The notes under the pieces were generated by a model. The model saw only the letters and a list, made by a program, of their open reading frames with translations. It did not search any database and was not told where the DNA came from. From Deltaproteobacteria bacterium (lineage in GTDB: Bacteria > Desulfobacterota > Syntrophia > Syntrophales > Smithellaceae), in the NCBI GenBank assembly GCA_019136325.1, contig JAGVUJ010000125.1, positions 1 to 12,285 of the forward strand: 12,285 nucleotides of DNA. The letters run 5' to 3'. Position numbers and translations under genes: made by a program. Positions 2,649-12,003 of this stretch are shown piece after piece. Position 1 is the stretch's first letter. Each line of letters opens with the position of its first letter.

Positions 2649-3644
2649 TTAGAGCGTCTCCGTTTGCGTTTCTTCTTCAAGAATATCATTTTGCCGATAT
2701 TTTTCCCATTGGGAAAAATAATGATATTTCATGCCGATCATGATTCCCATCAATCCCATTAAAAGTTCGACGGCGGTTATGAGCAATCGGGAGATCACCG
2801 GCAGAATCAGGGCCGCTTCAATCGTGGCAAACTGCTTCAGCATGAAAAACATGGCGCCTTCCCGCACGCCAAGTCCGCCCATGGTAAAAAAAGCCAGCAA
2901 TCCCAGAATCAGCGAGACGGAGATCGTCGCCATCATGGCGAAAATATGCGAAAACGATAAGGGCATGTTCACTCCCCGCGCGAGAAAATACAGGGCAATC
3001 CCGAGAAAAACGCACGCCAGAGCGTAAAGCATCTGCACCTGAATAAATGTGGTCTTCTTGGTGTGAATCGGTTTGATGTTCAGGTTGAACAACCGGTTGA
3101 CGGGTCGAATCAGATAATTGATGATGGTGTGGTTTCCGATAATAAAAACGGCGTCCATCATCAGGAACAGCATGAATATCGGCAGGGTGGCGTGAAGGGA
3201 CATTTCCCGGACATAAATGAAATAGTAATAAAAGGAGAACAGGGCTGTGACGAAAAACAGACAGATAAAACTGACCAGATTGATATAAAGCAGCGTGACG
3301 TTGGCAATGCCTTTGGATGAAAGCAGCGCTATCTGGGCCGCATACGTCCATATTTTCCCCGGAATGTATTTGAATATGGCAGACGTGCAGTACAGTGCGA
3401 AGCTTTCGGTATAATTTAATTTTTCCGTTAAATAGCTGTTGACAAAAATTCGCCAGACGACAGGTCCGATCAGCAGGGCGCAACTGCCGAAAATAACCGC
3501 CAGGCTCATCTCCACGGGGTTGATGCTGAAATCCCAGGTCCGGATGGCCCCGGCGTTCTTCTGGAATTGCAGATAAAAAAAGTAAACCGCTACGGCGACA
3601 ACTGCCAGCGCCGAAAGGTATCGTAGCAATTTTTTTATAGTCAC
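2649..3644 (-). CDS. Lysylphosphatidylglycerol synthase TM/flippase-like (UPF0104) membrane protein
   Basis: A 331-residue multi-pass inner-membrane protein with about eight hydrophobic segments. It matches the LPG_synthase_TM/UPF0104 family, related to the flippase half of MprF and to the archaeal AglD C-terminal domain. Family hallmarks are KYIPGKIW at residues 92-99 and MGGLGVREGA at 255-264. It lacks the aminoacyl-phosphatidylglycerol synthase domain, so a lipid or lipid-linked glycan transport role is only an inference from relatives. The start is GTG 3644, eight bases after GGAG. It is the first gene of a minus-strand run with the M50 protease and nitroreductase, downstream of a near-consensus promoter at 3728-3756. 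The C-terminus is a short charged tail rich in Glu and Thr. Confidence 0.85.
   Translation of the reverse strand: MTIKKLLRYLSALAVVAVAVYFFYLQFQKNAGAIRTWDFSINPVEMSLAVIFGSCALLIGPVVWRIFVNSYLTEKLNYTESFALYCTSAIFKYIPGKIWTYAAQIALLSSKGIANVTLLYINLVSFICLFFVTALFSFYYYFIYVREMSLHATLPIFMLFLMMDAVFIIGNHTIINYLIRPVNRLFNLNIKPIHTKKTTFIQVQMLYALACVFLGIALYFLARGVNMPLSFSHIFAMMATISVSLILGLLAFFTMGGLGVREGAMFFMLKQFATIEAALILPVISRLLITAVELLMGLMGIMIGMKYHYFSQWEKYRQNDILEEETQTETL
2682..2728. repeat. Nested inverted repeats in the 3' end of the flippase-like gene
   Basis: The inner arms ATTTTTCCC (2699-2707) and GGGAAAAAT (2711-2719) are perfectly complementary around a 3-base loop. The outer arms AATATCATT (2682-2690) and AATGATATT (2720-2728) are also perfect. 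On the minus strand this would form a long hairpin about 35 bases before the stop codon and just ahead of the M50 gene. No T-run follows, so it does not look like an intrinsic terminator. It may be an mRNA processing or stability element. Confidence 0.45.
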
Positions 3645-3856: not shown

Positions 3857-4507
3857 ATGGTCGTGGATTCCAGAAAATCAAATTCAAAAACGCGCGCGGC
3901 GATTATCGAAGCGGCGGGAAGAATATTTGCCGAGGAAGGTTATAAACAGGCAACGGTCAGAGACATTTGCAGTCATGCCGGAGCCAATGTCGCGGCCATC
4001 AACTACCACTTCGGAGACAAAAAAGAATTATATCTTGCCGTCCTGAAGCATTATCAGGAAATCGCGTTTCAAACCTACCCGCCCGATCTTGGCATGAAGG
4101 AAACACAGAAGCCGGAGGAAAAACTGCGCGCGTTTATCCGGTCGTTCCTGATGCGGATTATGGACGACGATCGTCCTGCCTGGTTCGGCAAGCTTCTGGC
4201 CCGGGAGTTTACAAATCCGTCTTGGGCATTCGATATTCTGGTGGATGAAAACATTCGTCCCTCCTTTCAGCTGCTCACCGGAATCATTGCCGTGATCCTG
4301 GACAAAAGCCCGAAAGACAGGATTGTACGGCTTTGCGCCATGAGCATTGTCGGACAGTGTCTTTATTTCCGGCATTCTCACCCTGTCATCACCAGAATCT
4401 ATCCGGGTGAAACATTCGGGGTCAAGCAAATCGATGAATTGACGGAACACATCACGCTTTTTTCTTTGCGTGGACTCATGAAAGAGAAACGAAAACTCAG
4501 CAGGTGA
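3857..4507 (+). CDS. TetR/AcrR-family regulator, CecR-like (DUF1956-type C-terminus)
   Basis: A 216-residue DNA-binding repressor type. The TetR N-terminal domain runs from about residue 10 to 60 (TRAAIIEAAGRIFAEEGY, then the helix-turn-helix ATVRDICSHAGANVAAINYHF, ending DKKELY). The C-terminal ligand/dimer domain carries LAREFTNPSWAFDILVDENIRP (about 114-135), then VRLCAMSIVGQCLYFRHSHPVI. This pattern is typical of the CecR (YbiH) C-terminal domain. E. coli cecR precedes the ybhGFSR ABC exporter genes. Here the regulator leads a TolC-adaptor-ATPase-permease operon whose next gene starts four bases after its stop, so control of the pump and of itself is likely. The ATG at 3857 has only a weak AGGTG upstream. 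The inducer is unknown. Confidence 0.9.
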   Translation: MVVDSRKSNSKTRAAIIEAAGRIFAEEGYKQATVRDICSHAGANVAAINYHFGDKKELYLAVLKHYQEIAFQTYPPDLGMKETQKPEEKLRAFIRSFLMRIMDDDRPAWFGKLLAREFTNPSWAFDILVDENIRPSFQLLTGIIAVILDKSPKDRIVRLCAMSIVGQCLYFRHSHPVITRIYPGETFGVKQIDELTEHITLFSLRGLMKEKRKLSR

Positions 4508-4511
4508 AAAC

Positions 4512-5789
4512 ATGCACAAGAATATTTTTTTCATAATCCTTTTACTGGCGCTGCCGTTCGCCGCGACAGCCGCGGAACCGGCAGCGGGCTCCACCGCCTA
4601 TAATCTGGAACAATGCCTGTCCATTGCGCTGGAGAAACATCCGAGTCTCAGGGCGTCGGCAGGAACGATCAAAATGAATGAAAGCCGTGTCGGACAGGCC
4701 CGGGCTCAATATTATCCGCAGGTCGATTTATCCACCAGCTACAACAGAATCGGTCCGACAACGCCGCCCGGCGAAAGTATCGACGCCTATGATCAATATT
4801 CAACGGGAATCAACCTCGGCGTGACTCTTTTTGATTTCGGCAAAACATCCACCCGTGTGGCCATTCAGCATCTCAATGTTTCCGCCTCGCGCGCCGATTA
4901 TGAAGAGGTCAAAACACAAATCATATTGAATGTGAAAAAAGCGTATTACGATCTGCTGCAAACCCAACGCAACCAGGCTGTGGCCGTTGACACAATGAAC
5001 CAGTTTCAGCGGCATCTGGATCAGGCCAATGCTTTTTTCCGCGTCGGCACCAAACCGAAATTCGACGTGACCAAGGCGGAAGTTGATCTTGGCAACGCCA
5101 GGCTGAGCGTATTAAAAGCGGAGAATGCGGTTCGCGCCGCGATGATCACCTTGAAAGATGTCATGGGCGTTCCCGAAAAAGCCGATTTTGCCATTATCGA
5201 TAATCTCGCTGATCGGAAAATCGAACTGGAATTAAGCGATGTCTTGAAAAAAGCGTATGCCAACCGTCCGGATCTCAGTTCCATCGTGGCAAAACGGGAA
5301 GCAGCGGAGCGTTCAATTGAACTCGCGAGGAAGGATTACTATCCCATCCTGTCGGGCAGCGCCGGGTACGGATTTTCCGGAACGGATTTTCCTCTGGGAC
5401 GCGGCTGGAATGCCGGTGCTGCGCTGAGTATCCCGCTTTTTTCCGGATTATCGACAAAATATCAGATTGATGAAGCCGGCGCCAATCTGGACATTCTCAA
5501 GGCCAATGAGGATAGCATCCGTCAGGCCATTCGTTTGGACGTCGAACAGGCCTATCTGGATGTTCGGGATACGGCCGAACAAATAGTCATGGCTGAAAAG
5601 ACCGTGCTTCAGGCGCAGGAAAATTACGATCTGGCGTCCGGACGGTACCGAACCGGCGTCGGAAATCCCATTGAGGTCGCGGATGCCACCATCTCTCTTA
5701 ATAACGCCAGAGCCAATTTGAATACGGCGCTTTATAATTACAAGATCGCGCGGGCTATATTGGAAAAATCCATAGGAGCGAATCCATGA
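4512..5789 (+). CDS. TolC-family outer membrane efflux protein
   Basis: A 425-residue outer membrane channel of the OEP family, the exit duct of tripartite pumps. It begins with a signal peptide (hydrophobic run IFFIILLLALPFAATA, likely cleaved near residue 20-21). Two OEP repeats follow, about residues 30-215 and 235-420. Each is rich in long amphipathic helices with Ala/Gln/Asn/Asp heptads, e.g. NQFQRHLDQANAFFRVGT and the related late repeat ENYDLASGRYRTGVGNPIEV. The length suits TolC relatives in such operons. The ATG at 4512 follows AGGTGA in the tail of the tetR gene. The stop overlaps the next ATG by four bases (ATGA at 5786-5789), indicating translational coupling with the adaptor gene. 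Confidence 0.92.
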   Translation: MHKNIFFIILLLALPFAATAAEPAAGSTAYNLEQCLSIALEKHPSLRASAGTIKMNESRVGQARAQYYPQVDLSTSYNRIGPTTPPGESIDAYDQYSTGINLGVTLFDFGKTSTRVAIQHLNVSASRADYEEVKTQIILNVKKAYYDLLQTQRNQAVAVDTMNQFQRHLDQANAFFRVGTKPKFDVTKAEVDLGNARLSVLKAENAVRAAMITLKDVMGVPEKADFAIIDNLADRKIELELSDVLKKAYANRPDLSSIVAKREAAERSIELARKDYYPILSGSAGYGFSGTDFPLGRGWNAGAALSIPLFSGLSTKYQIDEAGANLDILKANEDSIRQAIRLDVEQAYLDVRDTAEQIVMAEKTVLQAQENYDLASGRYRTGVGNPIEVADATISLNNARANLNTALYNYKIARAILEKSIGANP

Positions 5790-6970
5790 AGAAAAAAATC
5801 ATCATTTCATTGATCATCGTCTGCATGATAGCGGCGGGGCTGTTTTTTTATCTCAAGGGGAACGGGGATGATACAGCTTATAAAACAGAAAAGGTGACCC
5901 GCGGCGAGATTAAATCCGACGTAACGGCAACCGGCACGGTGAACGCCGTCACAACGGTTTCCGTCGGTACGCAGGTTTCAGGAACCATTAAAAGACTTTT
6001 TGCCGACTACAATTCGCCGGTGAAAAAAGGCCAGTTGCTCGCGCAGATCGATCCCTCCACCTTTCAGGGGCAGGTCGATCAGGCCAGAGCCAATCTATTG
6101 TCGGCTCAGGCGAACATGGAAAAATCCGCCGTGAATGTTACCGACGCGCGCAGAACCTATGACCGCAGCCGGGAACTCTTCGCCCAGAATTTCATCGCCA
6201 GAAGCGAACTGGATACGGCGGAAACGAATCTTCATTCCACTGAAGCCCAGCTAAAGGTTAATCAGGCGCAGGTCGAACAGGCCAAAGCCTCCCTTAAGAT
6301 AGCGGAAACAAATCTGCAATACACAAATATCGTTTCGCCGGTAAACGGGACCGTCATCTCCCGCAGCGTGGATGTCGGCCAGACCGTGGCGGCCAGCTTT
6401 CAGACACCGACCCTCTTCAGCATCGCCCAGGATTTGACCAAAATGCAAATCAACACGAGCGTGGATGAGGCGGACATCGGCCGGGTGCAGACCGGACAGG
6501 ACGTCTCGTTTACTGTCGACGCCTATCCGGATACAATCTTTGCCGGAAAAGTTTCCGAGGTGCGTAATGCGCCGACCACGGTGTCCAATGTTGTGACCTA
6601 CGATGTCATTATCAAGGTGGATAATCCTCAGTTGAAATTAAAACCGGGAATGACTGCTAATGTGTCCATCACCGTCGAAACCCGTCATGATGTCCTGCGC
6701 GTACCCAATGCCGCCCTGCGCTTCAAACCTTCAGAGACGAAGGGACGGAAAGGAACGGGAGCGGAGCAACAGGACAGGAAAGGATCAAGAGTCTGGATTC
6801 TGGAGCAGGAAACTCCCCGGCCTGTTCAGGTTACCACCGGGCTCAGCGACGGCAACTACACGGAAATCAGTTCCGGTCAGCTCAAAGCGGGCCAGGACAT
6901 TATCACGGACAATTTGAATAATAAAAAAGGAAGCAGCAGCGCTCAACACCCGCCTCCGAGGTTTATGTAA
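5786..6970 (+). CDS. macA: MacA/HlyD-type periplasmic adaptor of the efflux pump
   Basis: A 394-residue membrane fusion protein linking inner-membrane transporter and outer membrane channel. A single N-terminal membrane anchor occupies about residues 4-23. The split lipoyl-like half-motifs are VSGTIKRLFADYNSPVKKGQ (about 64-83) and IVSPVNGTVISRSVDVGQTV (about 182-201). They flank a coiled-coil hairpin (about 95-178) rich in Gln/Ala/Asn. Beta-barrel and membrane-proximal domains follow (DVSFTVDAYPDTIFAGKV; LKPGMTANVSI). The lysine/arginine-rich insert at 313-335 (SETKGRKGTGAEQQDRKGSR) lies where MacA-type adaptors carry a variable loop. The C-terminus ends in a Ser/Pro tail. The gene overlaps tolC by four bases and the ATPase gene by one. 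The symbol rests on architecture and on the MacB-type partners. Confidence 0.9.
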   Translation: MKKKIIISLIIVCMIAAGLFFYLKGNGDDTAYKTEKVTRGEIKSDVTATGTVNAVTTVSVGTQVSGTIKRLFADYNSPVKKGQLLAQIDPSTFQGQVDQARANLLSAQANMEKSAVNVTDARRTYDRSRELFAQNFIARSELDTAETNLHSTEAQLKVNQAQVEQAKASLKIAETNLQYTNIVSPVNGTVISRSVDVGQTVAASFQTPTLFSIAQDLTKMQINTSVDEADIGRVQTGQDVSFTVDAYPDTIFAGKVSEVRNAPTTVSNVVTYDVIIKVDNPQLKLKPGMTANVSITVETRHDVLRVPNAALRFKPSETKGRKGTGAEQQDRKGSRVWILEQETPRPVQVTTGLSDGNYTEISSGQLKAGQDIITDNLNNKKGSSSAQHPPPRFM

Positions 6971-7662
6971 TGACGCTCATTGAAACAAGAAAACTTGTTA
7001 AAACATACGACGTCGGCGATGAAGGTGTTCACGCTCTGGAAGATGTGTCCGTCAAAATTGAACAGGGCGAATTCGTCGCGATTATGGGACCTTCCGGTTC
7101 AGGCAAATCCACCTTCATGAATATCATCGGCTGTCTCGATCAACCGACGGCAGGCGAGTATATGCTGGCCGGTCAAAAAATCGGCGGCTTGTCGCGGGAT
7201 GATCTGGCGGCTATCCGTAATCGCCAGATCGGTTTTGTCTTTCAGGGTTTCAATTTGTTATCACGGACATCGGCGCTGGAAAATGTCGAACTGCCGCTGC
7301 TTTATAATCACGTTCCGTCAAAGGAAAGAAAACTGAAATCCACGGCGGCGTTAAAAATGCTGGGGCTGGAGGGGAGAGAACAGCACCATCCCAATCAACT
7401 TTCCGGCGGTCAACAGCAGAGAGTGGCCATCGCCCGTGCATTGGTGAACAACGCGCCGATCTTGATGGCCGATGAACCGACGGGCAATCTGGATACAAAA
7501 ACCAGCATCGAAATTATGGAACTTCTGGTTCAATTGAACCGGGATTCCGGAACAACCATTATTCTGGTCACTCATGAGTCGGACATCGCCGCGTTCAGCA
7601 AACGCATTATCCGGTTTGTGGATGGACATGTGGTCAGCGATGAAGAGGTAAAAAAATCATGA
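6970..7662 (+). CDS. MacB-type ABC transporter ATP-binding protein
   Basis: A 230-residue cytoplasmic ATPase that powers the adjacent permease; it is of the LolD/MacB/FtsE type. All motifs are intact: Walker A GPSGSGKST (residues 40-48), Q-loop FQGFNLL with Gln at 92, signature LSGGQQQRVAIARAL (144-158), Walker B ILMADEPTGNLD (164-175) and H-loop His202 in LVTHE. In classical E. coli MacB this domain is fused to the permease; here they are separate genes. The ATG overlaps the adaptor stop by one base (TAATG) and the stop overlaps the permease ATG by four (ATGA), so expression is coupled. Confidence 0.95.
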   Translation: MTLIETRKLVKTYDVGDEGVHALEDVSVKIEQGEFVAIMGPSGSGKSTFMNIIGCLDQPTAGEYMLAGQKIGGLSRDDLAAIRNRQIGFVFQGFNLLSRTSALENVELPLLYNHVPSKERKLKSTAALKMLGLEGREQHHPNQLSGGQQQRVAIARALVNNAPILMADEPTGNLDTKTSIEIMELLVQLNRDSGTTIILVTHESDIAAFSKRIIRFVDGHVVSDEEVKKS

Positions 7663-8888
7663 TCAGCATTGTGTCCACGCTCCGCATCGCTTTAAGGGCC
7701 TTATGGATCAACAAGATGCGTTCAGCACTGACCATGCTGGGCATCATTATCGGCGTCAGCGCCGTGATTATCATGCTGGCGGTGGGCACGGGCGTCAGCC
7801 GGAAAGTGTCATCGCAAATCTCCAGCATCGGCAGCAACCTGATCATCATCATGCCGGGCAGCTCCTCACAGGGGGGCGTCCGGATGGGCGGGGGCAGCCA
7901 GTCCACATTAACCACCGCCGACGCGGATGCCATCCTGAAGGAATGTTCCGCCGTTTCCGCCGTGGCCCCCATGCAGCACGGTTCTGCGCAGGTGGTGTAC
8001 GGGAATCAGAACTGGTCAACCAGCATTCAGGGAACCACGCCCGGTATTCTGGAAGTGAAGGATTGCGGCCTGACGGCGGGACGGAACATGAATGCGCAGG
8101 ACGTCCGCAGCGCTACGAAGGTCTGTCTTCTGGGACAGACGGTTGTTGATAATCTTTTCGGCAGTATAGATCCCATCGGTCAAATCATCAGAATAAAGAA
8201 AATTCCATTCACGGTTATCGGCGTTCTGGAACCCAAAGGGCAATCCCTGGGCGGCCAGGATCAGGACGACACCATCATCATTCCATTGAGCACGGCTCAG
8301 AAAAAAGTCTTCGGCAGGACCATCCCCGGAATGGTGCGGTCGATTATGGTCAAGGCGAGAAGCAGCGAGGATCTGACTATTGCAGAAAGACAGATTACGG
8401 ATCTGCTGCGTCAGCGGCACCGCATCGGTCCGAACAAGGAAGATGATTTCACCGTCATGAACTTGACGCAGGTTCTGAATATGGCGGAACAGACCGCCAA
8501 CACGTTTGCCCTGCTTCTGGGAGCGATCGCTTCCGTGTCGCTGCTGGTCGGCGGCATCGGCATCATGAACATCATGCTGGTTTCCGTGACGGAACGCACA
8601 CGGGAAATCGGCATTCGCATGGCCGTCGGCGCAAAGACCTGGGACATTCGCATTCAGTTTATTATCGAAGCTCTGACCCTTTCCATGATCGGCGGCATTG
8701 CCGGCATTATCATCGGAAGCAGCGGCTCCTTCGTCCTGTCCACCGTTTTTGAGATTCCTTCCGTCGTATCGCTTCTATCGGTTCTCCTCTCATTCAGCTT
8801 TTCCGGTTTTGTGGGAATTTTCTTCGGCTTTTATCCGGCCTACAAGGCATCGCTGTTGAATCCGATCGACGCTTTGCGATTTGAATAG
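7659..8888 (+). CDS. MacB-type ABC transporter permease (FtsX superfamily)
   Basis: A 409-residue inner-membrane permease. The first membrane helix (about 22-43, after NKMRSALTMLG) leads to a large periplasmic MacB_PCD domain (about 45-270). The FtsX domain follows, with three helices at about 283-309, 337-361 and 370-395. Hallmarks are GGIGIMNIMLVSVTERTREIGIRMAVGA (in the 298-325 region) and the closing FYPAYKASLLNPIDALRFE. A Gly/Ser-rich loop near residues 66-82 is a local oddity. MacB-type systems act as mechanotransmission pumps that push periplasmic substrates through TolC rather than across the inner membrane. The substrate (peptide, lipopeptide, macrolide or envelope molecule) cannot be deduced. 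It is the last gene of the operon; no intrinsic terminator is evident after TAG 8886-8888. Confidence 0.93.
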   Translation: MISIVSTLRIALRALWINKMRSALTMLGIIIGVSAVIIMLAVGTGVSRKVSSQISSIGSNLIIIMPGSSSQGGVRMGGGSQSTLTTADADAILKECSAVSAVAPMQHGSAQVVYGNQNWSTSIQGTTPGILEVKDCGLTAGRNMNAQDVRSATKVCLLGQTVVDNLFGSIDPIGQIIRIKKIPFTVIGVLEPKGQSLGGQDQDDTIIIPLSTAQKKVFGRTIPGMVRSIMVKARSSEDLTIAERQITDLLRQRHRIGPNKEDDFTVMNLTQVLNMAEQTANTFALLLGAIASVSLLVGGIGIMNIMLVSVTERTREIGIRMAVGAKTWDIRIQFIIEALTLSMIGGIAGIIIGSSGSFVLSTVFEIPSVVSLLSVLLSFSFSGFVGIFFGFYPAYKASLLNPIDALRFE

Positions 8889-9776: not shown

Positions 9777-9843
9777 ATTTTCTCAGTGTAACAATCACAC
9801 AATAATCTTTTTACTATTCAATGGACGTTTGAGAGATCAAAAT

Positions 9844-9871
9844 TCAAATCGTAAAAAGAATGTCGATTTGA
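9844..9871. promoter_or_regulatory. Inverted repeat TCAAATCG/CGATTTGA
   Basis: Perfect 8-bp arms at 9844-9851 and 9864-9871 with a 12-base A-rich loop, immediately left of the tandem palindromes. No T-run follows on either side, so a terminator for the 8967 gene is doubtful. It may be an additional protein site. The rest of 9777-9873 is AT-rich and shows no gene. Confidence 0.35.
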
Positions 9872-9873
9872 GA

Positions 9874-9922
9874 TGTATAATATTTATACAGTTGATTGAT
9901 CAGGTTGTATAAATATTATACA
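9874..9922. promoter_or_regulatory. Tandem palindromic sites, candidate activator-binding (UAS) pair
   Basis: Two 17-bp sites, TGTATAATATTTATACA (9874-9890) and TGTATAAATATTATACA (9906-9922), are exact reverse complements of each other. Each is itself a 7-3-7 palindrome (TGTATAA-N3-TTATACA), so the pair is also a near-perfect direct repeat. Their centres are 32 bp apart, about three helical turns, which would place two dimers on one DNA face. They lie roughly 120 and 152 bases before the transcription start predicted from the sigma-54 promoter. That is the usual distance for enhancer sites of NtrC-type activators. The protein that binds is not in the window. Confidence 0.7.
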
Positions 9923-10007
9923 CAATCTGCTGGTGAACTCCTCCTTGTTTTTCATAAACAAACAATTAATAAAATGATTACATCTAGTTATGCAGTTATT
10001 CGGTAAA

Positions 10008-10023
10008 TGGCACGAGCATTGCT
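10008..10023 (+). promoter_or_regulatory. Sigma-54 (-24/-12) promoter of the ZraP-like gene
   Basis: TGGCACGAGCATTGCT matches the sigma-54 consensus TGGCACG-N4-TTGCW at every defined base. The invariant GG (10009-10010) and GC (10021-10022) have the required 10 bases between them. Transcription should begin near 10034, about 34 bases before ATG 10068. Sigma-54 promoters need an ATP-driven activator bound upstream, which the tandem palindromes would supply. Confidence 0.88.
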
Positions 10024-10067
10024 ATTAATCAGAGTAAATAAAAAAATAACTCACAAGGAGACAAGTT

Positions 10068-10571
10068 ATGAAAAAATTAGCATTAGCGTTAACGGTGATC
10101 GGGCTGAGCATTCTTTTGACCATGCCGGCGTATGCTTTCGGTCCTCGTGAAGGCCGAACGACCGGAAGGGGGTTTCAGACGGGAGACCATTGTGGCGGGT
10201 ATTACGGATTGGCTGGTCTGAATAAATTAAACCTTTCCGATGAGCAAAAAGCCAGAATTGAATCGCTTCGTGAGGCTCATATCAAGGATATACGTCCGTT
10301 AAGAGAAAAAATGTTCGACAAATCGGTGGAGTTACGCAGGTTCTGGCTGGAGGCAAATCCCGACAGAAACAAAATCACAGCCAAACAAAAAGAAGTAAGG
10401 GCGTTGCGTAATCAGATGGAAGATAAGAAGACAGCTTATCGGTTTGAAATCAACAAGGTGCTGACGAAAGATCAGAAGGAAAAACTGGCAATCTTCGGCT
10501 GGAACAAAAAAACAGGATTCGGCCCACGCGGCGGGAAACGAGGGTCTTATGGTCCGGGCGGTTGTTTCTAA
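10068..10571 (+). CDS. ZraP/Spy/CpxP-like periplasmic protein (periplasmic heavy-metal sensor family)
   Basis: A 167-residue exported protein. The signal peptide is KKLALALTVIGLSILLTMPAYA with cleavage near residue 23. The mature part is a helical LTxxQ-type domain of the Spy/CpxP/ZraP group: LNLSDEQKARIESLREAH (about 54-71), a central Arg/Lys/Glu-rich hairpin, then a second repeat VLTKDQKEKLAIFG (131-144). Relatives are periplasmic chaperones or metal-binding dampers of envelope-stress two-component systems. A His-Cys pair at 41-42, the Gly/Arg-rich flanks and a penultimate Cys (166) are possible metal or thiol sites. AAGGAG lies seven bases before the ATG. Control by a sigma-54 promoter parallels E. 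coli zraP, but the regulator pair is absent here. The next gene follows after 94 bases with no terminator, so the two are probably co-transcribed. Confidence 0.83.
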   Translation: MKKLALALTVIGLSILLTMPAYAFGPREGRTTGRGFQTGDHCGGYYGLAGLNKLNLSDEQKARIESLREAHIKDIRPLREKMFDKSVELRRFWLEANPDRNKITAKQKEVRALRNQMEDKKTAYRFEINKVLTKDQKEKLAIFGWNKKTGFGPRGGKRGSYGPGGCF

Positions 10572-10665
10572 GGGCCTTCATAAGGATGAGAATGGTTTGT
10601 GTCGTTCAAGAAATATGGATTGAGTCAACTTTATTAATAAAATGAACGGAGGAGTAAAAAATAAA

Positions 10666-11271
10666 ATGAAAAAGTTAATGATTAAAACCTTTTTAGTGAT
10701 CCTGGTGGTATGTATGCCGGTTGCGGCCATAGCCGATGTAAGGGTGCACGTGAATATTCCCTTGCCGCCGCCGATTTTCTTCCCGGCGCCGCCTCAACTG
10801 GTGGTGATACCGGAGACCGATGTTTATGTCGTCCCCGATGCCCGTGAAGACATATTTTTCTACGGGGGGTGGTGGTGGCGTCCGTGGAACAACCGCTGGT
10901 ATCGTTCACAGTACTATGACAGAGGATGGGCTTATCATCCCAATCCCCCTTATTTCCACAGAAGCATTCCTTCGGATTGGAGGTATAACTACAGAAATCA
11001 TAGCTGGAAAGGATATCGGTGGGAACCTCAGCGCACTCATCATCGGGACATTCAACGAAACTGGAATGCGTGGCAGAAAGACAGATACTGGGAAAAACAA
11101 AGGTATGGTGTGCGGGAAATGAAACATAAACGTTTCGCCCCGCAATACAAAACCGAGACGCGGAAAACAGTGACAAAATCTGTTGTCCAGCACAGAGGGA
11201 AAGGCCCCGGTGATTCCGGATATCCCGGAAGAAGCGACAGAAGGCCGTCGGGAGACAGAGACAGACGTTAA
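10666..11271 (+). CDS. Secreted aromatic-rich protein of unknown function
   Basis: A 201-residue exported protein that I cannot assign to a characterised family. A signal peptide (MIKTFLVILVVCMPVAAIA, cleavage near residue 24) is followed by a Pro/Val stretch (VNIPLPPPIFFPAPPQLVVIP). Then comes a core extremely rich in Trp, Tyr and Arg (GGWWWRPWNNRWYRSQYYDRG, about 68-88; further Trp/Tyr/His to about 150), and a basic, Gly/Pro/Arg/Asp-rich tail ending in DRDRR. The composition suggests a surface or periplasmic protein that binds metal, polysaccharide or membrane. The start is placed at ATG 10666, 11 bases after GGAGGAG; the ATG at 10642 lies upstream of that site and lacks its own. It shares a transcription unit with the ZraP-like gene and ends just before a strong terminator, so a linked envelope-stress role is inferred. 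Confidence 0.8.
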   Translation: MKKLMIKTFLVILVVCMPVAAIADVRVHVNIPLPPPIFFPAPPQLVVIPETDVYVVPDAREDIFFYGGWWWRPWNNRWYRSQYYDRGWAYHPNPPYFHRSIPSDWRYNYRNHSWKGYRWEPQRTHHRDIQRNWNAWQKDRYWEKQRYGVREMKHKRFAPQYKTETRKTVTKSVVQHRGKGPGDSGYPGRSDRRPSGDRDRR

Positions 11272-11444: not shown

Positions 11445-11511
11445 GCCAGCGATACAAAGGCTTGGGAAATGAAACCAGGTTCCTGAAGCGTTGAAAGGAG
11501 GTTTATCGTTG

Positions 11512-12003
11512 ATGAGAAAAGTATTTGCTATTTTCGTTTCTATGCTTTTTGTTGTTTCTTTATCGTTTGCCGTTGCGGGTTGCAGTAAAATTGAAGAAGA
11601 CTCTGCGAATTTGCGGAAAGCTGCGGCTGAATTGAAAGCACAGGCGGATGCGAAAAAGGCTGCGGCCGAATTGAAAGCACAAACTGATGCACAGCAGGCT
11701 GAGGCGGATTTAAAAGCCAAAGCCGAGGCGATGAAAGCCGAAGCGGAATTAAAAGCCAAAGAGATGGCAAAAAAGACTGCTGTGAAAGTAAAGCAGGTTA
11801 AAAAAGGCGTCGAAAAAGTTGCAAAAGAAGTTGCCACGGATGTCAAAAGCGCCGGCAAGGAAGTGAAGGAAGCTGCAAAAGAAACGGTGGTTGAAGTCAA
11901 GAGCGCCGGTACGGAAGTGAAAGAGACCGTCAAAGAGAAAGCAGTTGAAGTCAAAGACGCCGTAAAAGACGCGACAACCGACGTCAAAAATGCCGGCCAG
12001 TAA
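11512..12003 (+). CDS. Repetitive Ala/Lys/Glu-rich lipoprotein, LEA-like helical
   Basis: A 163-residue exported lipoprotein. The N-terminal signal ends in the lipobox AVAGC with Cys24 as the acylation site; Ser25 at +2 suggests outer-membrane sorting by enterobacterial rules. Residues 39-90 are four 13-residue repeats of the type AELKAQADAKKAA. Residues from about 91 onward form a second looser repeat of Val-Lys-Ser-Ala-Gly and Glu-Val-Lys units. The whole mature part is charged, lacks aromatics and Cys, and should be a long amphipathic helix or coiled coil, like Lpp-type tethers or LEA/desiccation proteins. No Lpp-type C-terminal lysine anchor is present. ATG 11512 follows AAAGGAGG by ten bases; TTG 11491 is rejected because it precedes that site. 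It is monocistronic, between terminators at 11294 and 12033. Confidence 0.85.
   Translation: MRKVFAIFVSMLFVVSLSFAVAGCSKIEEDSANLRKAAAELKAQADAKKAAAELKAQTDAQQAEADLKAKAEAMKAEAELKAKEMAKKTAVKVKQVKKGVEKVAKEVATDVKSAGKEVKEAAKETVVEVKSAGTEVKETVKEKAVEVKDAVKDATTDVKNAGQ
11626..11781 (+). repeat. Four tandem 39-bp (13-residue) coding repeats
   Basis: The first two units are nearly identical in DNA (GCTGCGGCTGAATTGAAAGC at 11620 and GCTGCGGCCGAATTGAAAGC at 11659, 39 bases apart). Units three and four are diverged but keep the 13-residue register with A(E/D)LKA at each start. The pattern suggests expansion by internal duplication, the first pair being most recent. Confidence 0.75.

Follow-up and report, generated by a model that had tools for sequence, protein, structure and literature searches.

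A conserved pair of palindromic boxes before a sigma-54 promoter and its Spy/CpxP-type gene in Smithellaceae, a probable enhancer for a ZraR/HydG-type regulator

The DNA analysed here, referred to as the window, is a stretch of 12,285 nucleotides from contig JAGVUJ010000125.1 of a Smithellaceae genome. The features with which this analysis is concerned are all located on the forward strand and are as follows:

3857..4507, + strand: TetR-family regulator of the CecR type (CecR_C, 128.4 bits), ahead of the efflux operon
4512..8888, + strand: TolC/HlyD/MacB-type efflux operon (Pfam OEP, HlyD, ABC_tran, and MacB_PCD/FtsX)
9874..9890, + strand: candidate distal enhancer box (site A), TGTATAATATTTATACA, exact match; the spacing to its partner is kept at orthologous promoters
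9906..9922, + strand: candidate proximal enhancer box (site B), TGTATAAATATTATACA, exact match; position conserved
9976..9990, + strand: ATTAC/TTA element, GATTACATCTAGTTA, in the interval from enhancer to promoter, where it recurs by eye in many orthologue rows (uncounted)
10008..10023, + strand: sigma-54 -24/-12 promoter, TGGCACGAGCATTGCT, full match to TGGCAC-N5-TTGCW
10068..10571, + strand: Spy/CpxP-family periplasmic protein of 167 aa (Pfam Metal_resist and LTXXQ), the presumed target gene
10642..11271, + strand: downstream gene for a secreted-looking protein of a family that was not recognized (52% identity to L070:2235-2819)

The Spy/CpxP protein passes the gathering scores of both Pfam families (Metal_resist, 43.4 bits versus 29.2; LTXXQ, 36.5 versus 24.3) and has 285 homologues at E ≤0.001 (120 among the matches listed); no solved structure was found for the Spy-type alignment at E 0.001. 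Pfam scans of 14 ORFs and a six-frame scan for the signature of enhancer-binding proteins (EBPs) detected no kinase or regulator of this kind in the window. Directly upstream of the boxes, an imperfect inverted repeat with 13-nt arms 28 nt apart is present at 9806-9859, and positions 11491-12003 contain a lysine/alanine-rich, lipoprotein-like ORF, of which the match to Apolipoprotein is weak and below the cut-off.

Both 17-bp boxes are perfect 7-3-7 palindromes by exact string position, are exact reverse complements of one another, and start 32 bp apart, precisely as described in the first-pass annotation of this DNA. A scan of the whole window allowing three or fewer mismatches detected sites A and B only; at the same threshold, shuffled windows (n = 200) contained a mean of 0.20 boxes, and at least two boxes were present in 4 of the 200. 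The intergenic region in which they lie (9777-10067) is 291 bp long with a G+C content of 29%, and among 20,000 dinucleotide shuffles of this region at least one perfect 7-3-7 palindrome occurred in 940, two occurred in 21, and two that were identical or inverted occurred in none. The promoter TGGCACGAGCATTGCT carries the GG and GC of a -24/-12 element and is the only full match in the window according to the consensus scan. The 15-bp core of site B begins 101 bp ahead of the -24 element, and 85 bp separate the end of the site from that element. When the transcription start is assumed to lie ~12 nt past the GC of the -12 element, the box centres fall near -152 and -120, in agreement with the distances given in the same annotation. 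NtrC-type upstream activating sequences are likewise paired palindromes, placed ~100-150 bp ahead of -24/-12 promoters, and the NtrC box itself, TGCAC-N5-GTGCA, is unrelated in its letters to the boxes of the window.

One scan of genome contigs yielded 41 orthologous loci, from metagenome-assembled genomes titled Smithella, Syntrophaceae, Smithellaceae, or Deltaproteobacteria. A sigma-54 element matching at least 10 of the 11 consensus positions is present upstream of the gene in 39 of them, and no element at this threshold was found in L026 (163 bp of upstream DNA) or L032 (369 bp). When any site that agrees with GGATA-N5-TATCC at 7 or more of its 10 letters is counted as a box, two boxes are located exactly 32 bp apart at 33 of these 39 promoters and 33 bp apart in five orthologues (L004, L012, L016, L020, and L031), L035 belonging to neither group, with an unclear pair. 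As a control, the other flank of the top-scoring box was examined in the same way; a score of at least 7/10 was reached there in 2 of the 39, L002 and L017, where the true partner lies on that flank. Paired palindromes at a conserved upstream position, as are expected for a sigma-54 promoter with an EBP, are thus found in the window and in its orthologues. In the first-pass annotation, lack of conservation upstream of orthologues was regarded as an argument against an enhancer; because position, spacing, and palindromy are all conserved, this argument does not apply to the architecture, whereas the exact letters differ at one symmetric position. All four half-sites of the window are GTATA, versus GGATA in orthologues such as L001. 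A third GGATA half-site is located between the boxes in 24 of the 39 orthologues and is missing in the window. The exact inversion of the two boxes is not the conserved feature, box A being the reverse complement of box B in 0 of 51 distinct related pairs.

The core of site B begins 101 bp ahead of the -24 element in the window and in 10 of the 39 orthologues; in the other 29, the distance is 89-93 bp (22 loci), 99 or 102 bp (3), 105 bp (1), or 113 bp (3), L002 and L017 being measured from their proximal box. These groups differ by roughly one helical turn, and the helical phasing of the 10 distinct values is suggestive only (R 0.57, p ~0.04 at 10.5 bp), the fit at 10.5 bp being no better than that at 11-11.5 bp. 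The ATTAC...TTA element appears by eye to shift together with the enhancer, lying ~1 helical turn nearer the promoter at the 89-93 bp loci. In the window, 9976-9990 is possibly a bending site, such as one for IHF.

In 37 of the 41 loci, a divergent sensor kinase gene was recognized by eye beside the spy-type gene, with L001 counted from an N-terminal fragment and the kinase of L035 split over two frames. Among the four other loci, L013 and L039 have none within the stretch, and L026 and L032 are cut off. A whole or partial sigma-54 response regulator is encoded in 28 of the 41. In L031 and L036, the regulator consists of receiver, Sigma54_activat, and HTH_8 domains, and the kinase consists of sCache, PAS, HisKA, and HATPase domains. 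The L031 pair, which represents the relatives in the NCBIfam equivalog scoring, has ZraR (551.7 bits; cut-off 760) and ZraS (402.1 bits; cut-off 479) as its best models, and the 167-aa window protein, the third protein scored, reaches 27.4 bits with ZraP (cut-off 200); all three values are below the respective cut-offs. The best-matching solved structure is that of ZraR (1ojl). As a separate observation, a similar ORF of 52-61 codons precedes spy in six loci (L012 at 7803-7988, L020, L030, L032, L035, and L037), with the pattern MKKLT..L...LL..YY[P/S]...RK...EYI....S and, in five of the six, a sigma-54 element farther upstream, at -264 to -280; the ORF possibly encodes an undescribed small membrane protein of the spy operon.

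These relatives resemble the ZraPSR (HydHG) system, in which a Spy/ZraP-type gene is likewise divergent from genes for a kinase and a sigma-54 response regulator. The zraP/zraS spacer of Escherichia coli K-12 contains two 15-bp palindromes, GAGTAAAAATGACTC and GAGTCATTTTTACTC, which are exact inverted copies, as are the boxes of the window, are 31 bp apart (versus 32 bp in the window), and sit between opposed sigma-54-like elements (10/11 for the zraP-facing and 9/11 for the zraS-facing element). Descriptions in PMC8249747 have ZraR binding this spacer, and ZraR is tied to envelope stress there and in PMC7657598. The differences concern the letters (GAGTAAAAATGACTC/GAGTCATTTTTACTC in E. coli and G[G/T]ATA-N5-TAT[C/A]C here), the gene context, with no ZraS/ZraR genes adjoining the zraP-type gene in the window, and the scored proteins, which are below the equivalog cut-offs; the locus is therefore not classed as ZraPSR proper. 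The geometry seen in the window is thus that of a ZraR enhancer. The box had been regarded in the first-pass annotation as unrecognized and possibly defining an undescribed regulon, a view that is not supported in this form, because the gene layout in relatives with its divergent kinase and regulator, the best scores of the L031 proteins with ZraS and ZraR, and the geometry of the E. coli spacer make the type of regulator recognizable. It is most likely ZraR-like.

We therefore consider it probable, with some confidence, that the two boxes serve the Spy/CpxP-type gene and its sigma-54 promoter as an upstream activating sequence and are read by a ZraR/HydG-type regulator. Dimers of the phosphorylated response regulator would bind each 17-bp palindrome, and the 32-bp spacing, three helical turns, would place them on one face of the DNA for assembly of the ATPase ring. 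A DNA loop, probably bent at the ATTAC element, would bring the ring to the promoter at 10008-10023, where it would open the sigma-54 polymerase. The Spy/CpxP product may help the envelope to withstand metal or folding stress, as ZraP and Spy do; such stress would be the inducing signal, and the organism of the window would employ a ZraR-like protein of its own. The GTATA box can be read as a specificity variant of the ZraR-type box in which one letter pair has changed, that is, an architecture known from E. coli with letters that differ. Points against this reading are the lack of a kinase or regulator gene in the window, the GTATA letters, the missing third half-site, and the equivalog scores below the cut-offs. 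Under this reading, an uncharacterized box from uncultured syntrophs is tied to a regulator family and to a probable role under stress. The arrangement of two palindromes found in the zraP/zraS spacer is common to E. coli and the present phylum.

The GTATA form was also detected elsewhere in the phylum. In the phylum sample, the general pair with one or fewer mismatches was found in 17 of 395 genomes (control, 0), and in 8 of the 17 a GTATA-type pair adjoins a divergent kinase. Five of these eight loci also showed a Spy-like ORF, and four showed a full sigma-54 element. In another class, to which one of the GTATA loci belongs, 16 of 42 genomes carry a GTATA pair and none has a control match. 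Regulator and pair could be tabulated together for 51 distinct systems, drawn from 40 fetched stretches and the 41 orthologous loci: 12 of the 16 GTATA-pair genomes of the other class (all except L130, L149, L150, and L153), 14 of 24 other stretches (including two duplicates), and 27 of the 41 orthologous loci, with the duplicates (L142 = L030 and L161 = L037) counted once. In 39 systems, the recognition helix reads ITRxTL with x = K (28) or R (11), and G occupies the variable position in 135 of 156 half-sites; in the other 12, x is A (9), M (2), or V (1), and T occupies it in 46 of 48. Twelve of the 13 non-G half-sites in the ITRKTL systems originate from six loci (L006, L007, L024, L027, L034, and L035) for which the table took a different pair from that in the orthologue survey. 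All 12 regulators with GTATA boxes fall into a single clade (support 100/99) and therefore represent one evolutionary contrast, not twelve.

A universal one-residue code does not fit E. coli ZraR, which has the ITRKTL helix, yet its boxes are GAGTA/GAGTC, and other residues must therefore matter too. The best 211 hits of two protein searches, a non-random set, contained 205 regulators with K, five with M, and one that was unreadable; the five ITRMTL regulators are close to those of Syntrophaceae in the protein database. A scan of the order for TLR-type ITR[M/A/V]TL helices gave 0 of 155 genomes and is weak, as it covered some codons only and excluded TLH helices. We tentatively propose, as a possibility that we consider somewhat less likely than not, that the ZraR-like regulators of this phylum fall into two classes, ITR[K/R]TL reading GGATA and ITR[A/M/V]TL reading GTATA, with the choice resting largely on one residue. 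This yields a hypothesis of one residue and one base pair for the choice of DNA by EBPs. If it is true, the window, in which a Syntrophaceae-type Spy gene is combined with GTATA boxes, would represent a change of its own, namely a second switch inside Syntrophaceae, and the regulator of its organism would be expected to lack the basic helix residue.

The most serious alternative is that the boxes are the enhancer of a different NtrC-family protein, the gene having left ZraSR control on losing its neighbour and the new activator reading TGTATA-N5-TATACA. The ZraSR linkage is indeed absent in the window, deviating boxes are carried by L013 and L039, which also have no nearby kinase, and TGTATA-like pairs with the same spacing occur in a different context in genomes G062, G063, G066, and G069. 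According to the main text of PMC4641369, EBPs of Desulfovibrio vulgaris have motifs of the TGT-N11-ACA type, to which the box of the window also belongs, TGT/ACA motifs are common to several of them, and, as in the boxes of the window, the TGT and ACA half-sites are 11 bp apart; that text, in which the motif logos are figures, contains none of the strings ZraR, HydG, Spy, CpxP, or GGATA/TATCC. Neither the box itself nor a Syntrophales ZraR regulon appeared among the literature matches listed (titles, abstract openings, and open-licence full texts). However, the ZraR-type enhancer has the same spacing and the same 101 bp to the -24 element, GTATA boxes occur with ZraR-like systems elsewhere, and mixed GGATA/GTATA half-sites are found beside ITRRTL regulators (L135, L136, L137, and L166). 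We regard a different activator as unlikely.

A repressor operator, e.g. for the CecR-type TetR encoded at 3857-4507, is very improbable: the gene is present in the window and TetR proteins bind palindromes, but no box with three or fewer mismatches precedes that gene or its operon, the boxes stop well upstream of the -24 element, and the region adjoins the kinase gene in nearly all orthologous loci. A cruciform, hairpin, or attenuator with a stem of 17-bp arms and a 15-base loop can be dismissed almost entirely, since the single strand folds well (z -5.8) but the stretch precedes the promoter and lacks a T-run, it is the palindromy of the single box, not the A/B inversion, that recurs in related pairs, and the window contains no Rfam match at the gathering score.

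The probable ZraR-type pair is not confined to the main spy gene. A scan for the GGATA-type pair in 24 of the 41 genomes gave matches in 20 (control matches in 2). A generalized pair (G[G/T]ATA-N5-TAT[A/C]C twice at 32 bp, two or fewer mismatches; control, the reversed pattern) was found in 83 of the 155 genomes of the order, versus 3 for the control, the individual loci being those among the matches listed; together with the position, spacing, and palindromy kept in orthologues, this count supports the proposal of the earlier annotation that the boxes are an enhancer for the sigma-54 promoter. Loci outside the main spy gene include four TolC-HlyD-MacB operons (L069, L077, L141, and L145), each with a box pair and a sigma-54-like element; in L069, the boxes are at 7087 and 7119 and the element (9/11) is at 7219. 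These operons are similar to the efflux operon of the window (4512-8888), the OEP of which is 56% identical to that of L069 and which carries neither a box (three or fewer mismatches) nor a full sigma-54 promoter match. Other loci with the pair are L072 (a DUF3300 protein), L071 and L073 (Spy-type genes), and L070, where the homologue of the 10642-11271 gene has its own box pair (2045-2091) and a sigma-54 promoter, TGGCACATCATTTGCT, at 2180. The remaining matches of the first scan were without such context or outside those viewed.

The CecR-type TetR of the window is 43% identical to L074:3737-4372. In L074, a box pair (3496-3542) with an imperfect sigma-54 element precedes the genes for a CecR-type TetR and TolC-HlyD-MacB, a gene order that recurs in the window without boxes.

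Across the order, the GTATA pair with three or fewer mismatches was detected in 16 of 155 genomes versus 10 with control matches, which is near noise, and with TG/CA flanks it was detected in 10 of 155 (control, 0). In L084-L087 (genomes G062, G063, G066, and G069), TGTATA-type pairs at 32 bp are located near genes that by eye are crotonase-like or HMG-CoA-lyase-like, with a TGGTAT...TTGCT element in three of the four loci, and these pairs perhaps belong to a further EBP regulon whose box is similar.
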